Below, piece after piece: positions 43,981-52,952 of a stretch of DNA of 64,000 bases. Each line of letters begins with the position of its first letter. Within the stretch, counting starts at the first letter, position 1. The DNA is taken from contig NZ_RZHE01000012.1 in NCBI RefSeq assembly GCF_003989825.1, forward strand, positions 124,001 to 188,000. The letters run 5' to 3'. The notes below the pieces were generated by a model. That model saw only the letters and a program-made list of their open reading frames with translations. It ran no database searches and was not told where the DNA came from. Origin of the DNA: Vreelandella populi. GTDB taxonomy: Bacteria > Pseudomonadota > Gammaproteobacteria > Pseudomonadales > Halomonadaceae. Position numbers and translations under genes: made by a program.

Positions 43981-44010
43981 GTGCAGCCTTGATAAGGCTG
44001 CACTTTTTTT
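43981..44010 (+). terminator. Rho-independent terminator
   Basis: GTGCAGCCTT-GAT-AAGGCTGCAC is a perfect 10-bp stem followed by seven T residues. It ends the DUF488-DUF3750 unit and separates it from the Lrp operon. Confidence 0.9.
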
Positions 44011-44127
44011 GTGCGCTTAGAAAGCTTAGTAATGAAAAAGCCATACAGAAAAAATCTTTCTCCTGGCTGGTGTATTTTAGAGCGTTATAGAAATATATTC
44101 CTATTTAAGCCTTTTAGGAGAAATAAA

Positions 44128-44595
44128 TTGCTTATTGACCGCTTCGATTTGAAAATTATTGAACAGCTTCAGCGTAATGATAACCTTTCTATTGCCCAGC
44201 TTGCAGAAGGCGTAGGGCTTTCGGTAACCCCTTGCTGGCGTCGAATTCAGCGCCTGGAAAAAGAGGGCGTAATCGAAAAAAGAATCGCCGTCCTAAACCC
44301 TGAAAAGCTTAATCTTGGCTTGACTGTGTTTGTCATGATTAAAACCGATAAACACAATCAAACCTGGCTGGATGCTTTTAAAGAAGCCGTTCAGTCCTTC
44401 CCCGAGGTGATGGAAGTTAATCGGCTAGCGGGAGAGTACGATTATTTGCTTAAGGTCATTACGCGCGATAACCAATCGTTTGATGCCTTTTATAAAAGGC
44501 TTATCGCTAAAATAGAGCTCAGTAATGTCACATCATGCTTCTCAATGGAACAGGTCAAAAAAACTACCGAGCTGCCACTCGGCGACATCATCTGA
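44128..44595 (+). CDS. Lrp/AsnC-family regulator (TTG start)
   Basis: The 155-residue protein has an N-terminal HTH (residues 2-50, FDLKIIEQLQRNDNLSIAQLAEGVGLSVTPCWRRIQRLEKEGVI) and a C-terminal RAM ligand domain (LTVFVMIKTDKHNQTWLDAF, LAGEYDYLLKVITRD). The start is taken as TTG 44128, since AGGAG stands 7 nt before it and this gives the normal family length; upstream ATGs would add 39 residues next to a terminator. It overlaps the next gene by 71 bp and is the likely operon regulator. Confidence 0.85.
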   Translation: MLIDRFDLKIIEQLQRNDNLSIAQLAEGVGLSVTPCWRRIQRLEKEGVIEKRIAVLNPEKLNLGLTVFVMIKTDKHNQTWLDAFKEAVQSFPEVMEVNRLAGEYDYLLKVITRDNQSFDAFYKRLIAKIELSNVTSCFSMEQVKKTTELPLGDII

Positions 44596-46234
44596 GTGGA
44601 TTGACTATATTCGTGATGACGTGATTGGCGAGGGCGAGGTTATCCCTGGGCCATTTGGACCTCGGCCTCTTCTATACGCTGACTACACGGCATCGGGCCG
44701 GGCGCTGGGTATGGTTGAAGAAGCCATGCGACATCAGGTGTTACCGTTTTACGCCAATACCCACACCGAAACCTCCTATACCGGTAAAACCACCACTCAG
44801 CTTCGTGAAGCGGCCCGCCAAGCAATAAAGGATTCGGTAGGCGCTGATGCCGACTACGCCGTTATTTTTGCCGGGGCAGGGGCAACTGCTGCGATTAATC
44901 GCTGTAGCCATATTCTTGGTCTTCAAACCCCGTCTGAATCCTCATCGAATTCCAGGCCCGTGGTCTTTATTGGGCCTTTTGAACACCACTCCAATGACCT
45001 TGTATGGCGCGAGTGTGATGTAGACCTGGTACGTATCCCGCTAACCGAAAGCGGCACGCCCTGCCTTGAGACATTAGCGCTACGTCTTGACGAGTACGCT
45101 GACCGCGAGACAAAGGTGGCTGCGTTTTCAGCCGCTTCCAATGTCACTGGTATTAAAACAGACGTTGTCGCATTGGCACGCCTGGTTCACCAGCATGAAG
45201 GCATTGTGCTGCTCGATTATGCCGCAAGTGGCCCCTATGTGAGCATCAACGTGGCGGGCACGAGCGAGGGCGATCATATCGATGGAATTTTCTTGTCGCC
45301 GCATAAATTCGTTGGTGGGCCTGGGAGTTCCGGCATTCTGGTGATCCGCAAAGCGCTATGCCGTAATCCCATACCTTCCGTGGCGGGTGGTGGGACGGTG
45401 TCTTACGTAACGGCTCAGCATCACCGCTATGTGACCAACGTTCAGCGGCGGGAAGAGGCCGGTACACCCGGCATCTTGGGCGATATTCGAGCGGGCTTTG
45501 CGTTTCGTATTAAAGACTTGGTTGGCGCTGAAAATATCGAAGCGCGTGAAAGTGAGCTGGTTGAGATGGCAATGGCGCGCTGGCAAACCGTCAGCAATAT
45601 CCACCTTTTAGGCTCTTTAACCGCCTCTCGCCTGGCCATCTTTTCATTCAACATTAGTGCGGGCGGTCGTGATATTCACCATAACCTGATTGTTGCCATG
45701 TTAAATGACCTGTTTGGTATCCAGGCGCGGGGCGGCTGCTCCTGTGCTGGCCCTTATGGTCATGAGCTGCTTTCAATAGACGAAAAAACCGCAGCTGAGC
45801 ATGAGGATTTAGTCCAAAAAGGTAGAAGCTTATATCGTCCAGGTTGGGTAAGACTAGGTTTTAATTTCTTTTTTAGCAATGAGACCGCTAACTATGTAAT
45901 ATCGGCAGTCGAATTTATTGCCCGCTATGCACCTGTACTGATGAAGCTGTATTCCGTGGATGAAACCAATGGCGTTTGGCTTGCTCGCCATCAAAGCGTC
46001 ACTCAAGCGCCGACGAATCTCTTGAATACACTTCTGTCGCAAGATACTAGTCAAGAGCCAGCCATAATGGCAGGAAAAGACGATTGCTTTGCACAAGCTC
46101 AGCAGCTCGTTGAGCAGGCCAAAGCGCTGCCGTTAGAGGAGAATGCTCAGTTTACAGATGTACCTGTTCGTTGGTTCTGGTGGCCTCATGAAGCGGAGCA
46201 GGCTATTCAGGCACAAATCGAGATGACGCAATGA
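44525..46234 (+). CDS. Class-V aminotransferase-fold PLP enzyme
   Basis: The 569-residue protein is a fold-type-I PLP enzyme related to cysteine desulfurases and selenocysteine lyases. Motifs: DYTASGRAL near residue 53, GPFEHHSN at 150-157, DYAASGP at 231 and the PLP-lysine region LSPHKFVGGPGSSG (Lys261). A loop RGGCSCAGPYGH has cysteines at 405 and 407, near where SufS/Csd enzymes carry the catalytic Cys. It is longer than typical desulfurases (about 400). It starts within the lrp gene and overlaps the next gene by 4 bp. Substrate unknown. Confidence 0.8.
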   Translation: MSHHASQWNRSKKLPSCHSATSSEWIDYIRDDVIGEGEVIPGPFGPRPLLYADYTASGRALGMVEEAMRHQVLPFYANTHTETSYTGKTTTQLREAARQAIKDSVGADADYAVIFAGAGATAAINRCSHILGLQTPSESSSNSRPVVFIGPFEHHSNDLVWRECDVDLVRIPLTESGTPCLETLALRLDEYADRETKVAAFSAASNVTGIKTDVVALARLVHQHEGIVLLDYAASGPYVSINVAGTSEGDHIDGIFLSPHKFVGGPGSSGILVIRKALCRNPIPSVAGGGTVSYVTAQHHRYVTNVQRREEAGTPGILGDIRAGFAFRIKDLVGAENIEARESELVEMAMARWQTVSNIHLLGSLTASRLAIFSFNISAGGRDIHHNLIVAMLNDLFGIQARGGCSCAGPYGHELLSIDEKTAAEHEDLVQKGRSLYRPGWVRLGFNFFFSNETANYVISAVEFIARYAPVLMKLYSVDETNGVWLARHQSVTQAPTNLLNTLLSQDTSQEPAIMAGKDDCFAQAQQLVEQAKALPLEENAQFTDVPVRWFWWPHEAEQAIQAQIEMTQ

Positions 46235-47700
46235 CCATGACTCCCTCACTGGCGGGCGCTGGCTTAGAAGCGCTTAATGCCCGCGTTCAATACGACTTGG
46301 CATGTCTGAATATTCCACCCGCTAACTGGGTACCTCCCCAGGCGATGGAAGACGGGCAGCCTGTGCATGATGTGGTGATTATTGGCGGCGGGCAGTGCGG
46401 CATGGTGGCAGCCTTTGCGCTGCTATCCGGTGGCATCAGCAATATCCGTATTTTCGATCGTAATCCGGCTGGGCTGGAAGGCCCTTGGCTGAACTACGCT
46501 CGTATGGAAACCTTGCGTTCTCCCAAAACCTTGCCTGGCCCCAGTTATGGATTTGCATCACTCACCTTCAGGGCCTGGTATGAAGCGCAGTTCGGTAACC
46601 CGGCATGGGAAGCGCTGGATAAAATCCCGCGCCCCACCTGGATGGCCTATTTAAGCTGGTACCGCGACGTATTAAAGCTCCCCGTTGAGAATGACGTTAA
46701 GGTCGAGCACGTTACGCCCGAAGGTGATTTGTTAAGACTTGAGCTTTCAGGCGCCGGGGCTCCCAGTAAAACCGTGCTTACCCGCAAACTTGTAATGGCG
46801 ACCGGCCGTGAAGGCACTGGCGCACCTAAAATTCCGGCGTTCGTTAATAACCTGCCCGGCAACGCCTGGTCGCATTCGGCGGATGAGATCGACTTTGCGC
46901 GTTTAAAAGACAAGCGTGTGGTGGTGATTGGGGTCGGGGCTTCTGCAGTCGATAATGCAGCAGAGGCGTTAGAGCATGGTGCTCAGGAAGTACGCTTTTT
47001 AATTCGTCGCCCTCAGATGCCCACTATCAATAAAATGATGGGCATCGGATCCTTTGGCTTTACCCATGGCTACGCCACGTTACCCGATGAGTGGCGCTGG
47101 CAAATTATGCACTATTCGTTTGCCACCCAAACTCCGCCACCCCGCGGCTCCACCTTGCGCGTCAGCCGTCATGACAATGCTCATTTCCACTTTGGCTGTG
47201 GTGTAAAAGCCATGCAGATGGAGGGCGATGAGATTGTTATTGAAACCCAGCAGGGCACCGTGCGCTGTGATTATCTGATCCTGGGCACTGGTTTTGAAAT
47301 CGACCCCCTGGCGCGCACAGAGCTTGCCGGTTACGCCGACCGTATTCTGCTATGGCGCGATTGCTACCAGCCACCCGTCGAGCTTAAGAACGACGAGTTA
47401 GGTAACTTCCCTTACGTACAGCGTGACTTTGCGTTCCAGGAGCGTGAGCCGGGAACAGCGCCCTGGTTGCGCAATATTCACTGCTTTAACTATGGCGCGA
47501 CCGTGAGTTTAGGCAAGGTCAGTGGCGATATTCCGGGGATCAGTGAGGGAGCAAGTTGGTTGGCTGGTGCGATTGCTGCCAATCTTTACCGGGAAGACGT
47601 AGAGCGCCACTGGCAACGGCTTGAGCAGTACGACTCGCCTGAATTATTAGGCGATGAGTGGCAAGCAACGCCTTTACCTAATGCGACTGCTAACGCTTAA
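46231..47700 (+). CDS. FMO-like FAD/NAD(P)-dependent oxidoreductase
   Basis: The 489-residue protein has an FAD-binding motif (VVIIGGGQCGMVAA, GGGQCG at 52-57) and an NAD(P)-binding motif (VVVIGVGASAVDNAAEA, 234-239). Between them, LPGNAWSHSADE (His215) resembles the flavin-monooxygenase fingerprint FxGxxxHxxxW. Such enzymes oxygenate S or N atoms or do Baeyer-Villiger reactions. It overlaps the PLP enzyme as ATGA, and the CMD gene follows 28 bp later, so it should act in the same pathway. Confidence 0.8.
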   Translation: MTMTPSLAGAGLEALNARVQYDLACLNIPPANWVPPQAMEDGQPVHDVVIIGGGQCGMVAAFALLSGGISNIRIFDRNPAGLEGPWLNYARMETLRSPKTLPGPSYGFASLTFRAWYEAQFGNPAWEALDKIPRPTWMAYLSWYRDVLKLPVENDVKVEHVTPEGDLLRLELSGAGAPSKTVLTRKLVMATGREGTGAPKIPAFVNNLPGNAWSHSADEIDFARLKDKRVVVIGVGASAVDNAAEALEHGAQEVRFLIRRPQMPTINKMMGIGSFGFTHGYATLPDEWRWQIMHYSFATQTPPPRGSTLRVSRHDNAHFHFGCGVKAMQMEGDEIVIETQQGTVRCDYLILGTGFEIDPLARTELAGYADRILLWRDCYQPPVELKNDELGNFPYVQRDFAFQEREPGTAPWLRNIHCFNYGATVSLGKVSGDIPGISEGASWLAGAIAANLYREDVERHWQRLEQYDSPELLGDEWQATPLPNATANA

Positions 47701-47728
47701 GTGGCGTATTGAAAAGCAAGGAATAACC

Positions 47729-48223
47729 ATGACTCATGTATTAGAACAAGCGGCTAATGTGCCCACTACTGGTCCGTTGGCAGATGCGCTGGCTGTGCGC
47801 CACAAGTTGATGGATTTGACCCAGGCTTCCTACGAAGCGGCTTTATTGCCAGGTGATGCTGGCCAAGTGCCTATCGCTATCAGAGCGGCACTGGCATGCC
47901 GTATGGCGCGTATTTGCCAACAGGCGGGCTTGGCCCAGCACTATGCTGATTTATTAGCGGGCTATGGCAGCGATGCGGACCCTTACCAGCTTGCCGAGCC
48001 TGGCAACCAGCCACCCGCATCCGAAAAGTGCCTGTCTGCCATGGTGACTTATGTCGACTTAGTCACTCAACGCCCCCGCGATGCCACGAAGGAAGATATC
48101 CAAGCACTTAGTGAGGCGGGTATAGAAGAGAGCGATATCGTCCGGCTGGCGGGCCTGGTGGCATTTGTTAACTACCAGCTGCGCGTTGCGGCGGTACTAA
48201 GTGTGATGGGAGAAGCTAAATGA
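47729..48223 (+). CDS. CMD/AhpD-fold protein without catalytic CxxC
   Basis: The 164-residue protein reads as a carboxymuconolactone-decarboxylase-fold member (PIAIRAALACRMARICQQAGL, then EAGIEESDIVRLAGLVAFVNYQLRVAAVL) similar to the small CMD proteins that pair with AhpD-like proteins in other gene clusters. The CxxC of active AhpD is absent. Start ATG 47729 follows AAGGA with 7-nt spacing. It overlaps the next AhpD-like gene by 4 bp (ATGA), so the two probably work as a pair. Confidence 0.75.
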   Translation: MTHVLEQAANVPTTGPLADALAVRHKLMDLTQASYEAALLPGDAGQVPIAIRAALACRMARICQQAGLAQHYADLLAGYGSDADPYQLAEPGNQPPASEKCLSAMVTYVDLVTQRPRDATKEDIQALSEAGIEESDIVRLAGLVAFVNYQLRVAAVLSVMGEAK

Positions 48224-48798
48224 GCCGTGTTATTCATAAGTTTACGTCGCGAATCCCCACCTGGCGCCCCTATATCACGCCTATCGATTTTGATAACGCC
48301 ACGCCTGCCCAGCGTGAAGCGCTTAAAGAAACGCCCTCCAATACTAAAATCTCTGATTATGTGCTGGTGCTGGCGCACGATCCTGAGTCGCTGCGTATTC
48401 GTACCTCGCTGTTTAACGGCATTATGTACGATAAAGGCGGACTATCGCGGGATGAGCGGGAGTTAGGCGCGGTGGCTGCCTCCGTCGTCAATCGCTGCAT
48501 TTACTGCGCGGCCGTTCATGCCCATCGTTATAACAATATCGTGGGCGATGAAAAGGTAATGCAAGATATCTTCTTGCGCGGCAAAGAGGCGGATCTGGAA
48601 CCCCGCATCAGAGCTATTTTGAAGTTCGCGATGCGCCTGTCCGAGTGTCCACCTAACGTGACCGATAATGACATTCAAAGCCTGCGCGATGTGGGTCTTG
48701 AAGATCAGGAAATTGTTGATTTAACGCTATCGACCACGCTGTTTGGCTGGGCAAACCGGTTAATGCATACCCTTGGCGAACCTGTTTCTAACCTCTGA
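48220..48798 (+). CDS. AhpD-like peroxidase-related protein
   Basis: The 192-residue protein has the AhpD active-site pattern E-x11-C-xx-C-xxx-H: Glu81, Cys93, Cys96 and His100 in ELGAVAASVVNRCIYCAAVH. This suggests disulfide or peroxide chemistry. A second repeat-like half follows (ILKFAMRLSECPPNVTDNDIQSLRDVGLEDQEIVD). It is translationally coupled to the CMD gene and 57 bp upstream of the TRAP binding-protein gene. Confidence 0.82.
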   Translation: MSRVIHKFTSRIPTWRPYITPIDFDNATPAQREALKETPSNTKISDYVLVLAHDPESLRIRTSLFNGIMYDKGGLSRDERELGAVAASVVNRCIYCAAVHAHRYNNIVGDEKVMQDIFLRGKEADLEPRIRAILKFAMRLSECPPNVTDNDIQSLRDVGLEDQEIVDLTLSTTLFGWANRLMHTLGEPVSNL

Positions 48799-48855
48799 TT
48801 TTTAAGCCCCGACACTGAAAATTAAAAAAACGTTGGCACACTCTAAGGACTTCCC

Positions 48856-49842
48856 ATGATTAAACATACGCTCCCCCGTCTGGCATTGGTAAGCGCTGTA
48901 TCCTTGTTGATGGCATCCCCGGCACTGGCGGAAACTCTGCGCCTGGGTACCGTGGTGAGTGCGCCACACCCCTGGATTGACGCTGCAGAAGCCTTCAAGG
49001 CAGAAGTCGAAGAAGCCACGGATAACCGGATTACGGTTCAAATCTTCCCGGGCGGTCAGTTAGGCAACGACCAGACCATGGTGGATGAAATCCGCATTGG
49101 CACCACGGATATGATCATTGGTGGAGTGATGAATGTGGCTCCCTATGTGCCGGATTTCGAAATTTTCAGCCTTAACTATCTGTTCCAGGACATGGATGAG
49201 TTCCGTGCAGCAACCGCTCCTGAGTCAGCGGTTTATAGCTATTTTGATCAGGCCATGACCGATGCCGGCGTTGGGCTGAAGCTTTTGAGTTTGACCGGCG
49301 GCGGAACGCGTAACCTGAGTACCAATACCGGCCCGGTCGAAGAGCCGTCTGATTTGGAAGGCGTTAAAATGCGCGTTACTGGTTCGCGCCTTGATGCTGA
49401 AACGTGGCAAATTGCGGGTGCATTAACCACGTCGCTTCCCTGGACAGAAATTTATACCGGCCTGCAGACCGGTGTTGTCGGTGCGTTTGAGAGTACTATC
49501 AGCGGCTATCTTTCAAGCCGCTTATACGAAGTAGCACCGTTTCATGCCAAAACTGAACACCAGATCATGATGAGCCACATCTCGATCAGCGAAAACCGTT
49601 TCAATCGGTTCTCTGAAGAAGATCAGGCCATTATTCAGCAAGCGGCTCAGCGCGCCGGTGAATATGGCACTGAGAAAGGGATCGAGTACGACGCTGAGTT
49701 TATCCAGGAGTTTGAAGATCTTGGGGTTACGGTAACCGAGGTCGATAAACAGGCGTTTATCGATCAAGTGGTGCCTCTGCACGATGAATTTGCTGAAGAG
49801 CGCGGTTTAACCGACCTGCTCGAGACTATCCGCAGCCTATAA
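48856..49842 (+). CDS. dctP: TRAP transporter substrate-binding protein (DctP type)
   Basis: The 328-residue periplasmic protein has a signal peptide cleaved after ALA (about residue 24) and a DctP domain: GRITVQIFPGGQLGNDQTMVDEIRIG-like stretch near 55-80 (reads NRITVQIFPGGQLGND), GVKMRVTGSRLDAETW with the conserved Arg that binds a carboxylate, and WTEIYTGLQTGVVGAFEST. The ligand is therefore probably an organic acid. It precedes the membrane subunits and follows the enzyme genes. Confidence 0.9.
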   Translation: MIKHTLPRLALVSAVSLLMASPALAETLRLGTVVSAPHPWIDAAEAFKAEVEEATDNRITVQIFPGGQLGNDQTMVDEIRIGTTDMIIGGVMNVAPYVPDFEIFSLNYLFQDMDEFRAATAPESAVYSYFDQAMTDAGVGLKLLSLTGGGTRNLSTNTGPVEEPSDLEGVKMRVTGSRLDAETWQIAGALTTSLPWTEIYTGLQTGVVGAFESTISGYLSSRLYEVAPFHAKTEHQIMMSHISISENRFNRFSEEDQAIIQQAAQRAGEYGTEKGIEYDAEFIQEFEDLGVTVTEVDKQAFIDQVVPLHDEFAEERGLTDLLETIRSL

Positions 49843-49925
49843 CGACTTTGGCCAGCATGCCGCTTTCCTTGAACCGCTGAAAAGTGGGGTGGGGAAGCGG
49901 CACGTGCCAATAAAAGGACAGACTA

Positions 49926-50432
49926 ATGCGGAAAATCAATGATGTAGTGGAAAAAATTTTGCTGTGTCTAGCGGGTTCTCTGTTTGCCGCTTTTATCCTG
50001 ACCGTTCTCTATCAAGTGGTTGCGCGCAATTACTTAAAAATCTCTGTTTCCTGGACAGATGAAGTAGCAATGGCTTGTTTCATTTGGGCGGTATTTATTG
50101 GCGCGGCGGTTGCCGTGCGTAAGCGCAAGCACTATGTGATCGATATTTTCCCCCCACAGTTTGTCATTACCCAGCGCGTGCTACGGCTATTCGGCAGCCT
50201 GGCCTGCCTGCCGCTGATTTATGTGCTGGTGGTGCATGGCAATATTTTGGTGGATATGGGGTGGAATCGTCGATCGGTGGCGCTGGGAACGCCGATGGCC
50301 TATGTATTTGCTGCCTTGCCTGTTGCCGGTATCGCTATGTTTTTATTTTCCATTGAAGTCATTTACGACGATATAGTGGCGCTCCGCAATGGCGGCAAGG
50401 TCAAGCGAATGAACGAGGTGGAAGGCTCATGA
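49926..50432 (+). CDS. dctQ: TRAP transporter small permease (DctQ type)
   Basis: The 168-residue inner-membrane protein has four hydrophobic segments and the DctQ core SVSWTDEVAMACFIWAVFIGAAVAVRKRKHYVIDIF. It partners DctM, whose gene overlaps it by 4 bp (ATGA). Confidence 0.9.
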   Translation: MRKINDVVEKILLCLAGSLFAAFILTVLYQVVARNYLKISVSWTDEVAMACFIWAVFIGAAVAVRKRKHYVIDIFPPQFVITQRVLRLFGSLACLPLIYVLVVHGNILVDMGWNRRSVALGTPMAYVFAALPVAGIAMFLFSIEVIYDDIVALRNGGKVKRMNEVEGS

Positions 50433-51718
50433 GCCCGCTAATTATATTAATCGGCAGCTTTTTACTGCTGATCGCGCTAAGCGTGCCGATTGCATTTGCT
50501 ATTGGCTTGGCGTCTATTTTTACTATTTTGGAAATGGGGCTGTCGCTGACGTCGGTTGCCAACCAGATGTTTGCCAGCATTAACTCGTTTCCGCTTTTAG
50601 CCGTCCCGTTTTTTCTGTTGCTGGGCCGCCTGATGAATGATGGTGGGATCACGGATCGCCTGCTCAAATTTGCTGATAGTTCAGTCGGACATGTGCGCGG
50701 TGGGCTTGGGCATATTAATGTCATGGTCTCCATGATGTTTGCCAGCCTTTCCGGCTCGGCCGCAGCCGATACGGCAAGCGTTGGCGCCGTGCTGATTCCG
50801 GCGATGAAAAAATCGGGCTATCCCGCTCCTTTTGCCGTTGCTTTAACTGCTGCCTCATCGGTATTAGGCGGCATTATTCCGCCCTCGATACTGATGGTTA
50901 TTTACGGTGCATTTGGCAATGTGTCCGTCGGAGCACTTTTTCTAGGCGGCGTCCTTCCGGGAGTTCTGGTGGGGCTTATGCAAATGGGCTACGTCTACTA
51001 CATCGCCAAGCGAGAAAATATTAAAGCGACAGGCAAGTTTTCGTTTAAGCAAATGGGGCGCACTGCGGTTGTCGCGGCTCCGCCGATGGCCTTGCCTCTA
51101 GTGGTGCTTGGCGGTATTACCACCGGTGTCTTTACCGCGACAGAAGCCGCATCGGTGGCGGTATTGGTTGGCGTGATTCTAGCAGTTGTGTTTTATCGCG
51201 CGATTCGTTTTAAGCAATTGCCGTCTATTCTGGCAGAGTCAGCAATCTCTTTTTCGCTGCCTATGTTTGCGGTTGCCTCGGCGGGCATTATGGGTTGGTT
51301 AATTTCTTATCTGGGCATTGCCCAGGATGTCGCCAACTTCATTTTATCGGTGACTGACCACCGTATTGGCATCATGCTGATGGTGATGCTTTTTATGCTG
51401 GTGATCGGGACGGTATTAAGCCCCGTAACGGCCGTTATTATTTTCCTGCCGATTATTCAGAGTATTTGTATCGCCGCGGATATTAATCAAATCCACATGG
51501 CATTAGTGGTTATCTTGTCGTTAACCTTGGGCTTGATAACGCCGCCCTATGGCATCTGCTTATTAATCGCCACCCAAATTGGTGAAGTTTCCATGCCGCG
51601 TGCTTTTATGGCGGTACTACCTTTAGTTGGATTAATCATGGCGGTCATATTGGCAGTTATTCTGCTGCCCAGCGTATTCTTGTTCCTGCCTCAAACGATG
51701 TTCCCTAAAGCGTTTTAA
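50429..51718 (+). CDS. dctM: TRAP transporter large permease (DctM type)
   Basis: The 429-residue inner-membrane protein has about 12 hydrophobic segments, with PFFLLLGRLMNDGGITDRLLKFADSSVGHVRGGLGHINVMVSMMFASLSGSAAADTASVGAVLIP and PPSILMVIYG, signatures of the DctM/SiaM family. It drives Na+-coupled uptake of the ligand delivered by DctP. It is the last gene of the Lrp-PLP-FMO operon, with a terminator 14 bp after the stop. Confidence 0.93.
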   Translation: MSPLIILIGSFLLLIALSVPIAFAIGLASIFTILEMGLSLTSVANQMFASINSFPLLAVPFFLLLGRLMNDGGITDRLLKFADSSVGHVRGGLGHINVMVSMMFASLSGSAAADTASVGAVLIPAMKKSGYPAPFAVALTAASSVLGGIIPPSILMVIYGAFGNVSVGALFLGGVLPGVLVGLMQMGYVYYIAKRENIKATGKFSFKQMGRTAVVAAPPMALPLVVLGGITTGVFTATEAASVAVLVGVILAVVFYRAIRFKQLPSILAESAISFSLPMFAVASAGIMGWLISYLGIAQDVANFILSVTDHRIGIMLMVMLFMLVIGTVLSPVTAVIIFLPIIQSICIAADINQIHMALVVILSLTLGLITPPYGICLLIATQIGEVSMPRAFMAVLPLVGLIMAVILAVILLPSVFLFLPQTMFPKAF

Positions 51719-51732
51719 GCTTATTAGTTAGG

Positions 51733-51766
51733 CCCCATGTCGGAAAAAACGGCATGGGGTTTTTTT
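51733..51766 (+). terminator. Rho-independent terminator of the TRAP operon
   Basis: CCCCATG and CATGGGG form the stem around CCGTTTTTTCCGA-like loop sequence, followed by a run of seven T residues on the plus strand. Confidence 0.82.
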
Positions 51767-51864: not shown

Positions 51865-52263
51865 ATGCAAACAGCCAATAATATTGCTCAGAATAAAGTT
51901 GCCGCTGCCTCGGGTTTAAAAGCCGCCGTACGCATTTTGGATAAATGGCGGGCAAATGGAGAGCAGGGCGAAGCCATACTGCGGGTATCCCATAGCACTT
52001 ATGCACGGGCACGTCGTGGCGATATTGGCGAAATAAAGCTGGATAGCGACCAGCTGACGCGCATTAGTTACCTACTGAATATTCACGCGGCGCTGCGCAT
52101 GCTGTTTGAAAATCCGGACAACCTGTATGGGTTTGTCTCGATGGAAAACCATAACCCCTACTTTAATGGCCGCACTCCACTTGAAGTCATGAGTAGCGGT
52201 GACTTCGCCGCGCTTTATGAAACGTTCAAACGCATTGATAGTTTGCGGGGCGCCCAATGGTAG
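51865..52263 (+). CDS. Xre/MbcA/ParS-type antitoxin
   Basis: The 132-residue protein has an N-terminal Xre-like HTH region (about residues 15-75) and a C-terminal antitoxin domain (LLNIHAALRMLFENPDNLYGFVSMENHNPYFNGRTPLEVMSSGDFAALYETFKRIDSLRG), as in the RES-Xre family. It should neutralise the downstream toxin and repress the operon through the TATTTGCAGATA repeats. Its stop overlaps the toxin start by 7 bp. Confidence 0.88.
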   Translation: MQTANNIAQNKVAAASGLKAAVRILDKWRANGEQGEAILRVSHSTYARARRGDIGEIKLDSDQLTRISYLLNIHAALRMLFENPDNLYGFVSMENHNPYFNGRTPLEVMSSGDFAALYETFKRIDSLRGAQW

Positions 52264-52952
52264 AACTAAAAACGCTACCAAAGCTTTCGGCGCGCTCAGT
52301 TACAGGCTACCGGCTGATTAACAGCAAGTTTCCACCGATTGATCTGTTTGATGATGTGGCCGATGAAGACGAATTTGCCGCATTACATGCGCTGCAAGCG
52401 TTAACCAACCCACGTCTGCAAAATGAGATAGGCAACCTAGCGCTATTGCCAGCCGGGGAAATTCCCTTTGGCATTCGTGGTTGTTCATACGCGGTAGCGC
52501 CATTTACCCATGTCAATCCGGATGGGTCGCGTTTCAGTGATGGTAGCTTTGGCGTGTTGTACGTAGCGGATGCCATGACCACGGCTATTGCCGAAGTAAA
52601 GTACCATCAGCAGGCGTATTGGCAGAACGTGCCGGGGCTACATTTTGAGCGCTTTGTTTTCCGAGGTCTAAAGTGCTTGTTTGACGAGCGTAGCTGCCGG
52701 GATGCCACGGTACTAAAGCGTTCACATCCTATTTATGCGCCGGATGATTACCGCCACGGCAGGGCGCTTGGCTGGTCGGTCAGGAAAGCACATTCACCCG
52801 GGCTGCGCTATCATTCTGTGCGCGAACCCCAGGCTACGTGCTGGGCGCTAATGACTCCCATGCAAGTGCGGGATGTGGTTCAGACGACTCATCTGGAAAT
52901 GATCTGGAACGGTAGCGTGACCCAAGTCAACCGGCTTAGCGCATGTGGTTAA
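52257..52952 (+). CDS. RES-domain toxin
   Basis: The 231-residue protein has the RES triad: Arg19 in GYRLINSKFPP, Glu113 in TTAIAEVKYH and Ser187 in LRYHSVREP. Characterised RES toxins degrade NAD+ and halt growth. It overlaps the antitoxin gene by 7 bp, an arrangement typical for this system. No inactivating mutation is visible. Confidence 0.88.
   Translation: MVELKTLPKLSARSVTGYRLINSKFPPIDLFDDVADEDEFAALHALQALTNPRLQNEIGNLALLPAGEIPFGIRGCSYAVAPFTHVNPDGSRFSDGSFGVLYVADAMTTAIAEVKYHQQAYWQNVPGLHFERFVFRGLKCLFDERSCRDATVLKRSHPIYAPDDYRHGRALGWSVRKAHSPGLRYHSVREPQATCWALMTPMQVRDVVQTTHLEMIWNGSVTQVNRLSACG

Follow-up and report, generated by a model that had tools for sequence, protein, structure and literature searches.

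Parts of the eight-gene locus described here, lrp-plp-fmo-cmd-per-dctPQM of Vreelandella populi (Halomonadaceae), recur in several described systems. The locus lies in a 64,000-nt stretch of contig NZ_RZHE01000012.1 (the whole stretch is hereafter called the window) and encodes an Lrp/AsnC-family regulator, a class-V pyridoxal phosphate (PLP) enzyme, a flavin monooxygenase (FMO)-like protein, two AhpD-type proteins (CMD and PER) and a tripartite ATP-independent periplasmic (TRAP) transporter. With the SufS (group II) cysteine desulfurases, the PLP enzyme shares the fold, the PLP-lysine region and the position of the persulfide cysteine; it differs from them in a second cysteine two residues earlier (CSC versus HHC) and, in its long form, in a C-terminal extension with a WFW-x-PH motif. 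A second comparison is offered by cuyARZ, in which CuyR is Lrp-like and CuyA is PLP-dependent, of another PLP fold type. In the accessible part of its description, this L-cysteate unit of Ruegeria pomeroyi comprises a cysteine-derivative sulfo-lyase, its own regulator and a sulfite exporter (PMC4334477), so that the likeness lies in a cysteine-derivative enzyme with its own regulator and the difference in the lack of FMO, CMD and PER there. The genes leading from 2-amino-thiazoline-4-carboxylate (ATC) to cysteine are related by context, as the ATC-hydrolase family occurs beside close PLP relatives and in a whole unit of Stappia, whereas the window's operon has no ATC hydrolase.

For the middle of the locus, the counterpart is SMb20278-SMb20285 of Sinorhizobium meliloti, where FMO, CMD and PER stand in the same order with an importer. 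There, a polyamine-like ABC system and a LysR regulator take the place of TRAP and Lrp, and the unit has no PLP enzyme. The match of SMb tags to genes was deduced from the wording of the accessible part of PMC3596328, the 1021 record carrying no annotation; SMb20284 is named among possible polyamine-uptake proteins in that of PMC3484140. Finally, E. coli YciW, annotated as a putative peroxidase, consists of two AhpD-like domains according to the available portion of PMC11429811; a review, in the portion likewise available, reports a CysB-binding motif upstream and an effect on cysteine tolerance, and calls the function unknown (PMC10821248). CMD resembles the N-terminal half of YciW and PER its C-terminal half (the NCBIfam assignments agree, below cut-off), the differences being that YciW is one protein and CMD and PER come from two separate genes, and that E. 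coli K-12 has no FMO in the 6 kb surrounding yciW.

We found that lrp-plp-fmo-cmd-per-dctPQM is a genuine conserved operon-like unit. Our tentative reading, the most economical one though given somewhat less than an even chance, is that the operon would serve the substrate-inducible breakdown of an organosulfur amino acid derived from cysteine, from which the SufS-like enzyme would remove the sulfur.

Gene content and conservation of the locus

The eight genes all lie on the plus strand, flanked by two terminator-like hairpins:

43981..44003, +, terminator-like hairpin 5′ of the eight-gene unit, 10 pairs with a T-run
44089..44102, +, candidate Lrp-family operator (putative function), palindrome AGAAATATATTCCT, 25 bp 5′ of the lrp start
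44128..44595, +, lrp, Lrp/AsnC-family regulator, 155 aa, TTG start
44525..46234, +, plp, class-V PLP enzyme (Aminotran_5), 569 aa, SufS fold, with K261, C405 and C407
46231..47700, +, fmo, class B flavin monooxygenase-like protein, 489 aa, Pyr_redox_3/Lys_Orn_oxgnase-like by Pfam
47726..48223, +, cmd, TIGR04029-like AhpD-type partner without a conserved CxxC, alternative start at 47654
48220..48798, +, per, TIGR01926/TIGR04030 AhpD-type peroxidase-related protein, CMD domain, with E79 and C93-x2-C96-x3-H100
48856..49842, +, dctP, TRAP solute-binding protein
49926..50432, +, dctQ, TRAP small permease
50429..51718, +, dctM, TRAP large permease
51730..51762, +, terminator-like hairpin 3′ of dctM, 13 pairs with a T-run

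An earlier note, made from the sequence alone, had placed the eight genes on one strand and named their products; all are present on the plus strand, and domain and family matches agree with the identities given. Its overlaps of 71 bp between lrp and plp (44525-44595) and of 4 bp each between plp and fmo and between cmd and per were confirmed, and dctQ and dctM overlap by a further 4 bp. The TTG start of lrp at 44128 has AGGAGA at 44116-44121, and the longest lrp open reading frame begins at 44011. As to the one terminator that the note had seen after dctM, the 13-pair hairpin is indeed there, and it and the hairpin at 43981-44003 have the highest pair counts among the 14 terminator-like sites listed; as a class, however, such sites are not in excess over shuffled sequences (14 found versus 13.4 expected). 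A promoter scan gave no excess either (9 found versus 11.2 expected from shuffles) and was not used.

We surveyed 151 sampled Halomonadaceae genomes and detected the PLP enzyme in 24 and the FMO in 10. All eight genes stand together in 8 of the 151, the window's own genome included; the remaining two FMO-bearing genomes showed no PLP gene in the stretch read, and two genomes of the same genus (L035, L037) carry lrp-plp without the other six genes. The best 80 of 380 named FMO loci by FMO similarity, a set biased to close relatives and with some loci cut by contig ends, were searched with tblastn. The full set was present in 19 of these 80 loci (17 from Halomonadaceae plus the alphaproteobacterial L071 and L074), a number that cannot be added to the family count because some genomes of the two sets, for instance L058/G117 and L059/G102, are probably the same. 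CMD and PER were each found in 78 loci, and FMO, CMD and PER co-occur in as many. PLP was detected in 49 of the 80 and Lrp in 48; fewer loci have an MFS protein (28), kbl (13) or tdh (12). The window's FMO is 98% identical to those of the V. zhanjiangensis and H. colorata loci. Even the lrp/plp overlap is retained in 17 of 18 co-directional named loci, measuring 71 bp in 12, 68 bp in 4 and 80 or 83 bp in Stappia L074; in the remaining one (L063), lrp is interrupted.

A PLP relative was found in just 22 of 398 genomes across the phylum. In view of this rarity and of the co-occurrence in 8 of 151 genomes and 19 of 80 loci, we rejected a chance grouping, and the conservation as a unit that the earlier note had proposed to check is thus seen across genomes. 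The note had also known no named pathway with exactly these genes. Our full-text literature searches returned no matching characterised operon and no account of the gene combination, a weak negative as they used literal terms and most subscription journals lay outside their scope.

Within the FMO set, clustering assigned 14 loci to kbl, encoding 2-amino-3-ketobutyrate CoA ligase (L079, L081, L082, L084, L087, L088, L090, L092, L099, L112, L118, L127, L131 and L132); most also carry Tdh (threonine dehydrogenase), and often an XRE-cupin regulator. In Vreelandella stevensii (L063, 6193-8155), one of the 17 Halomonadaceae loci with the full set, a DDE_Tnp_1_4 transposase gene splits lrp, with plp and the rest still in order, which is a natural lrp disruption.

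A SufS-like PLP enzyme with an invariant cysteine pair

Sequence and profile searches as well as fold searches placed SufS-group cysteine desulfurases on top for the PLP enzyme. All 50 fold matches listed were SufS-type desulfurases or selenocysteine lyases, with TM scores of 0.84-0.90 by target length and 0.59-0.65 by query length (the query being longer than the targets), at 21-26% identity in the fold alignments and for a structure model with a pLDDT of 82. Nearly all sequence matches listed are named cysteine desulfurase, and a few just 'aminotransferase'. In the profile alignment, RGGCSCAGP falls on RAGHHCAQP, which puts C407 on the SufS persulfide cysteine at the R-x-G-x-x-C position, and K261 aligns with the Schiff-base lysine. 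C405 and C407, the two cysteines to which the earlier note had pointed, are invariant together with K261 in 37 of 37 aligned sequences. Given these matches, the PLP-dependent transamination that the note had entertained is not favoured, and an aminotransferase is not our first choice, as the best profiles and folds are those of desulfurases. Nor is the protein the housekeeping SufS: the genome has a separate true SufS elsewhere (586 bits, above the family cut-off). The PLP enzyme reaches 148.5 bits, far under the SufS cut-off of 475, and sits with Lrp and catabolic neighbours, domain and family searches having found no suf iron-sulfur genes among the eight operon genes.

We further placed the enzyme in a tree of 64 PLP proteins, in which long branches were flagged, deep placements are tentative and L186 and L187 fall far outside on a very long branch. 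A long form comprises the Halomonadaceae TRAP units, Stappia L074 and the ATC clusters of Sagittula and Pseudosulfitobacter; one Rhodococcus and one further genus of Halomonadaceae stand close to its base. To the short form belong the ABC-type units, the loci with dioxygenase, EgtC-like or TauE neighbours, a second genus of Halomonadaceae, and L071, which has TRAP. Within the long form, the Halomonadaceae group (19 rows, support 97/97) is sister to the Stappia/Sagittula/Pseudosulfitobacter group (3 rows, 100/96), and the group joining the two (22 rows) has a support of 100/99. The FMO is linked with both forms.

Sulfur-type neighbours of PLP relatives

To describe the surroundings of PLP relatives, we tallied genes on the same strand, downstream of the PLP gene and within 8 kb, seeking seven sulfur- or cysteine-type genes. 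In the family, 20 of the 24 PLP genomes were read first and G003 later, with G095, G112 and G131 left out. Nine plasmid PLP loci were hand-picked from 223 records. Among these nine, a persulfide-dioxygenase homologue lies within 40 bp in three, one of them also with TauE, and two carry a cluster of ATC hydrolase, M20 and oxidase; one dioxygenase locus, on an Agrobacterium plasmid, was picked since its hit row named an MBL-fold gene, so that three of nine is not an unbiased rate. The dioxygenase homologues score 526-554 bits with NCBIfam Blh over the dioxygenase part (the cut-off of 625 applies to the bifunctional protein), and ETHE1 among the solved relatives also points to this assignment. 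A further plasmid locus, that of Rhodococcus DK17, has an MBL-rhodanese protein 1.2 kb 3′ of the PLP gene. In Rhizobium TAL182, a single cluster of ∼8 kb, accompanied by an amino-acid ABC importer, contains per, cmd and fmo along with lrp, plp, the dioxygenase homologue and TauE. The window's genome also has a dioxygenase homologue (66%), on another contig; no TauE homologue was found in it, in a search without a positive control.

Twenty phylum-wide PLP loci showed an EgtC-like gene in two (3 and 12 bp away), TauE in one (48 bp) and a DAO-type oxidase in two. Of the 49 named FMO loci with PLP, one (Stappia L074) has an ATC hydrolase and an oxidase downstream: after its eight genes come an oxidase that shares 57% identity with the one in the Sagittula ATC cluster and an ATC-hydrolase family protein, 26% identical to Sagittula's (assignments by Pfam only, 51 bits in Stappia and 128 bits in Sagittula). 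Although a minority, these sulfur-type contexts differ in kind and all fit cysteine or its derivatives. The earlier note had guessed at a sulfur- or nitrogen-containing substrate. The sulfur part of this guess is supported by the SufS fold, the persulfide-type cysteine and the sulfur-type neighbours of some relatives.

The EgtC-like amidohydrolase genes directly 3′ of PLP relatives are at L177 7209-8015 and L171 9559-13082; their scores, 160 and 166 bits, fall short of the cut-off (219). At L171, the EgtC-like gene is followed by 5-oxoprolinase subunits B, C and A, and the two loci suggest gamma-glutamyl-type substrates there.

The AhpD-type pair, the monooxygenase and the transporter

PER and CMD homologues were aligned after leaving out sequences outside 120-260 aa, which kept 63 and 56, respectively. 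In PER, E79, C93, C96 and H100 are invariant in the 63 homologues and the window, so that the AhpD active-site set is complete; CMD shows no conserved cysteine pair in its 56 homologues and the window. PER is therefore likely the catalytic chain. By family models, PER is above the cut-off for TIGR01926 (193.4 versus 81.8 bits) and below it for TIGR04030 (152 versus 233), and CMD, which has no Pfam match, remains below it for TIGR04029 (93.8 versus 100.75). E. coli YciW is itself below the TIGR04029 and TIGR04030 cut-offs, and the CMD and PER profiles each match it (5e-8 and 1.9e-10, the set searched including 200 shuffled decoys). A fused YciW-like homologue of 397 aa occurs in G037, ∼8 kb from an FMO relative and with ABC-transporter genes between.

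The structure model of the FMO has a pLDDT of 80, with weak loops. On pTiC58 (L143, 7938-9425), a distant FMO relative (34%) stands with NtaA/DmoA-family and LLM-class flavin monooxygenases, a gene of the acyl-CoA dehydrogenase family and an ABC importer.

All three TRAP families are above cut-off, DctP being of the DctP type. DctP matches 95 distinct solved sequences, and the 60 listed are mostly dicarboxylate-type TRAP or sialic-acid binding proteins, for which reason we rejected reading a ligand off DctP. An importer is present in 75 of the 80 FMO loci, either the three TRAP genes (23) or an ABC system with a polyamine-like binding protein (52), never both. The uptake of an organic acid, as the earlier note had supposed, is a possible role of the TRAP system, whose place the ABC type takes in those 52 loci. 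Genes of the octopine/nopaline-dehydrogenase family occur in 55 of the 80, including 52 of the 52 ABC loci and 1 of the 23 TRAP loci. We rejected a role for such a dehydrogenase in the window's pathway: a search of the window's genome, made without a positive control, found no homologue.

A proposed pathway and its alternatives

In the pathway that we propose, the TRAP system would import a cysteine-derived compound, which the FMO would oxygenate at sulfur or nitrogen. The AhpD-type pair, with PER as the catalytic chain and CMD as a degenerate partner, much like a split YciW, could then reduce the resulting sulfenate, peroxide or disulfide. The PLP enzyme, a putative catabolic offshoot of SufS, would take the sulfur off the cysteine moiety with Cys407 as the persulfide carrier, so that the remaining carbon and nitrogen backbone (alanine, if it works like SufS) could support growth, and the Lrp-family protein may sense the amino acid and control the operon. 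From the substrate class to the order of steps, the site of oxygenation, every reaction and the regulation, this is what we infer from gene content, homology and conservation. If true, the cysteine desulfurases would gain a branch that is catabolic and linked to an importer, and YciW-like proteins may take part in turning over dissolved organic sulfur and nitrogen. The operon ties together three unexplained groups, namely the SufS-like class-V PLP enzymes with their own Lrp, the FMO relatives, currently annotated just as 'NAD(P)/FAD-dependent oxidoreductase', and the YciW-related CMD/PER proteins, and each gains a testable partner and chemistry.

Several observations weigh against this pathway. 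Most of the PLP loci examined have no sulfur-type neighbour: of the 19 family loci besides the window, 7 have the FMO and none has any of the seven genes sought, and among the 20 phylum-wide loci EgtC or TauE adjoins the PLP gene in just 3, the dioxygenase in none and the FMO in 1. The FMO lacks a PLP neighbour in 31 of the 80 FMO loci, a few of them cut by contig ends, and its substrate thus need not contain sulfur. Furthermore, its first 31 Foldseek matches are all N-hydroxylating monooxygenases, and the octopine/nopaline-dehydrogenase genes in all 52 ABC loci are left unexplained. YciW, for its part, has no CxxC, whereas PER keeps CxxC and the histidine. Lastly, the available part of the study treats SMb20278-SMb20285 as one group, and what altered it there were glnD and glnB-glnK mutations in nitrogen regulation rather than sulfur (PMC3596328).

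The points on the Foldseek matches of the FMO, the dehydrogenases and S. meliloti could be accommodated if the operon scavenged nitrogen from a sulfur-free N-substituted, opine-like or other amine, which the FMO would N-hydroxylate. PER and CMD would then deal with peroxide, and the amino acid set free would go to the PLP enzyme, working as a lyase or by deamination. The Lys_Orn_oxgnase Pfam match of the FMO and the polyamine-like ABC systems that accompany the dehydrogenase genes in 52 of 80 loci would suit this as well, and upon re-alignment the N-hydroxylase PvdA leads with a Z-score of 21.4. However, YpdA (20.6) and a small FMO (20.4) are tied with it within 1, and the invariant SufS-type cysteine and the dioxygenase, TauE, EgtC and ATC contexts find no explanation, so that we consider nitrogen scavenging unlikely, roughly a one-in-several prospect.

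Slightly less probable still is a C-S beta-lyase route, in which the FMO would make the S-oxide of a cysteine thioether and the PLP enzyme would cleave it like EgtE or alliinase into a sulfenic acid, pyruvate and ammonia, PER and CMD then reducing the sulfenic acid to a thiol. This would account for the FMO, the dithiol peroxidase and the PLP enzyme in one line, and the two EgtC-like genes directly 3′ of PLP relatives as well as a weak match of the Rhizobium PLP protein to the EgtE model (36.8 bits) point the same way. That match is, however, far under the EgtE cut-off (400), and the fit to SufS models and folds is much closer; nor would a beta-lyase need the invariant SufS-type cysteine.

More speculatively, and with rather low probability, FMO-CMD-PER may have a general oxidative function, the release of an amino acid from a conjugate substituted at N or at N and S, either opine-like or a thiazolidine- or oxazolidine-type aldehyde adduct. 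The neighbouring module would vary with the amino acid freed, the SufS-like PLP enzyme serving cysteine and Tdh with Kbl serving threonine. We raise this because the neighbours change (PLP in 49, kbl in 13 and both in 4 of the 80 loci) and because of the links to ATC hydrolase and oxidase; if true, marine and soil bacteria would have a new, modular route for the catabolism of modified amino acids. Least probable is detoxification or redox defence, with the operon removing reactive sulfur or an electrophile adduct of cysteine and having little nutritional role: the AhpD-type site in PER, the dioxygenase homologue and TauE beside some PLP relatives and the cysteine tolerance that the accessible part of the review reports for YciW would fit, but the importers in the operon and in 75 of the 80 related loci (TRAP 23, ABC 52) argue for nutrient uptake.

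Candidate operators and flanking genes

Palindromes recur next to lrp. Of 18 co-directional loci, 9 have a GGAATANAATTCC-like site upstream of lrp and 9 lack it; the window has such a site at 44089-44102. It lies 39-46 bp before lrp in 7 loci and 80 bp before it in 2. Among random stretches, 23 of 3600 contain it. Where lrp and plp are divergent (among L071-L132), a TCATATGA palindrome is found near the lrp start in 18 of 30 intergenic regions, as opposed to 19 of 6000 random stretches taken from the same loci (0.3%). Of 16 further hand-picked regions, 6 have it (L140, L172, L174, L188, L189 and L190), and two of the other ten show a Halomonas-type site by eye. Both patterns were chosen after viewing the sequences and the loci are related, so these counts do not represent independent trials. 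The palindromes are candidate operators of this Lrp subfamily.

Directly 3′ of the operon, at 51865-52952, an Xre/MbcA/ParS-type antitoxin gene overlaps a RES-domain gene. The pair is likely a RES-Xre toxin-antitoxin system, to judge from its domains, and such a pair also lies 3′ of the operon in several close relatives.

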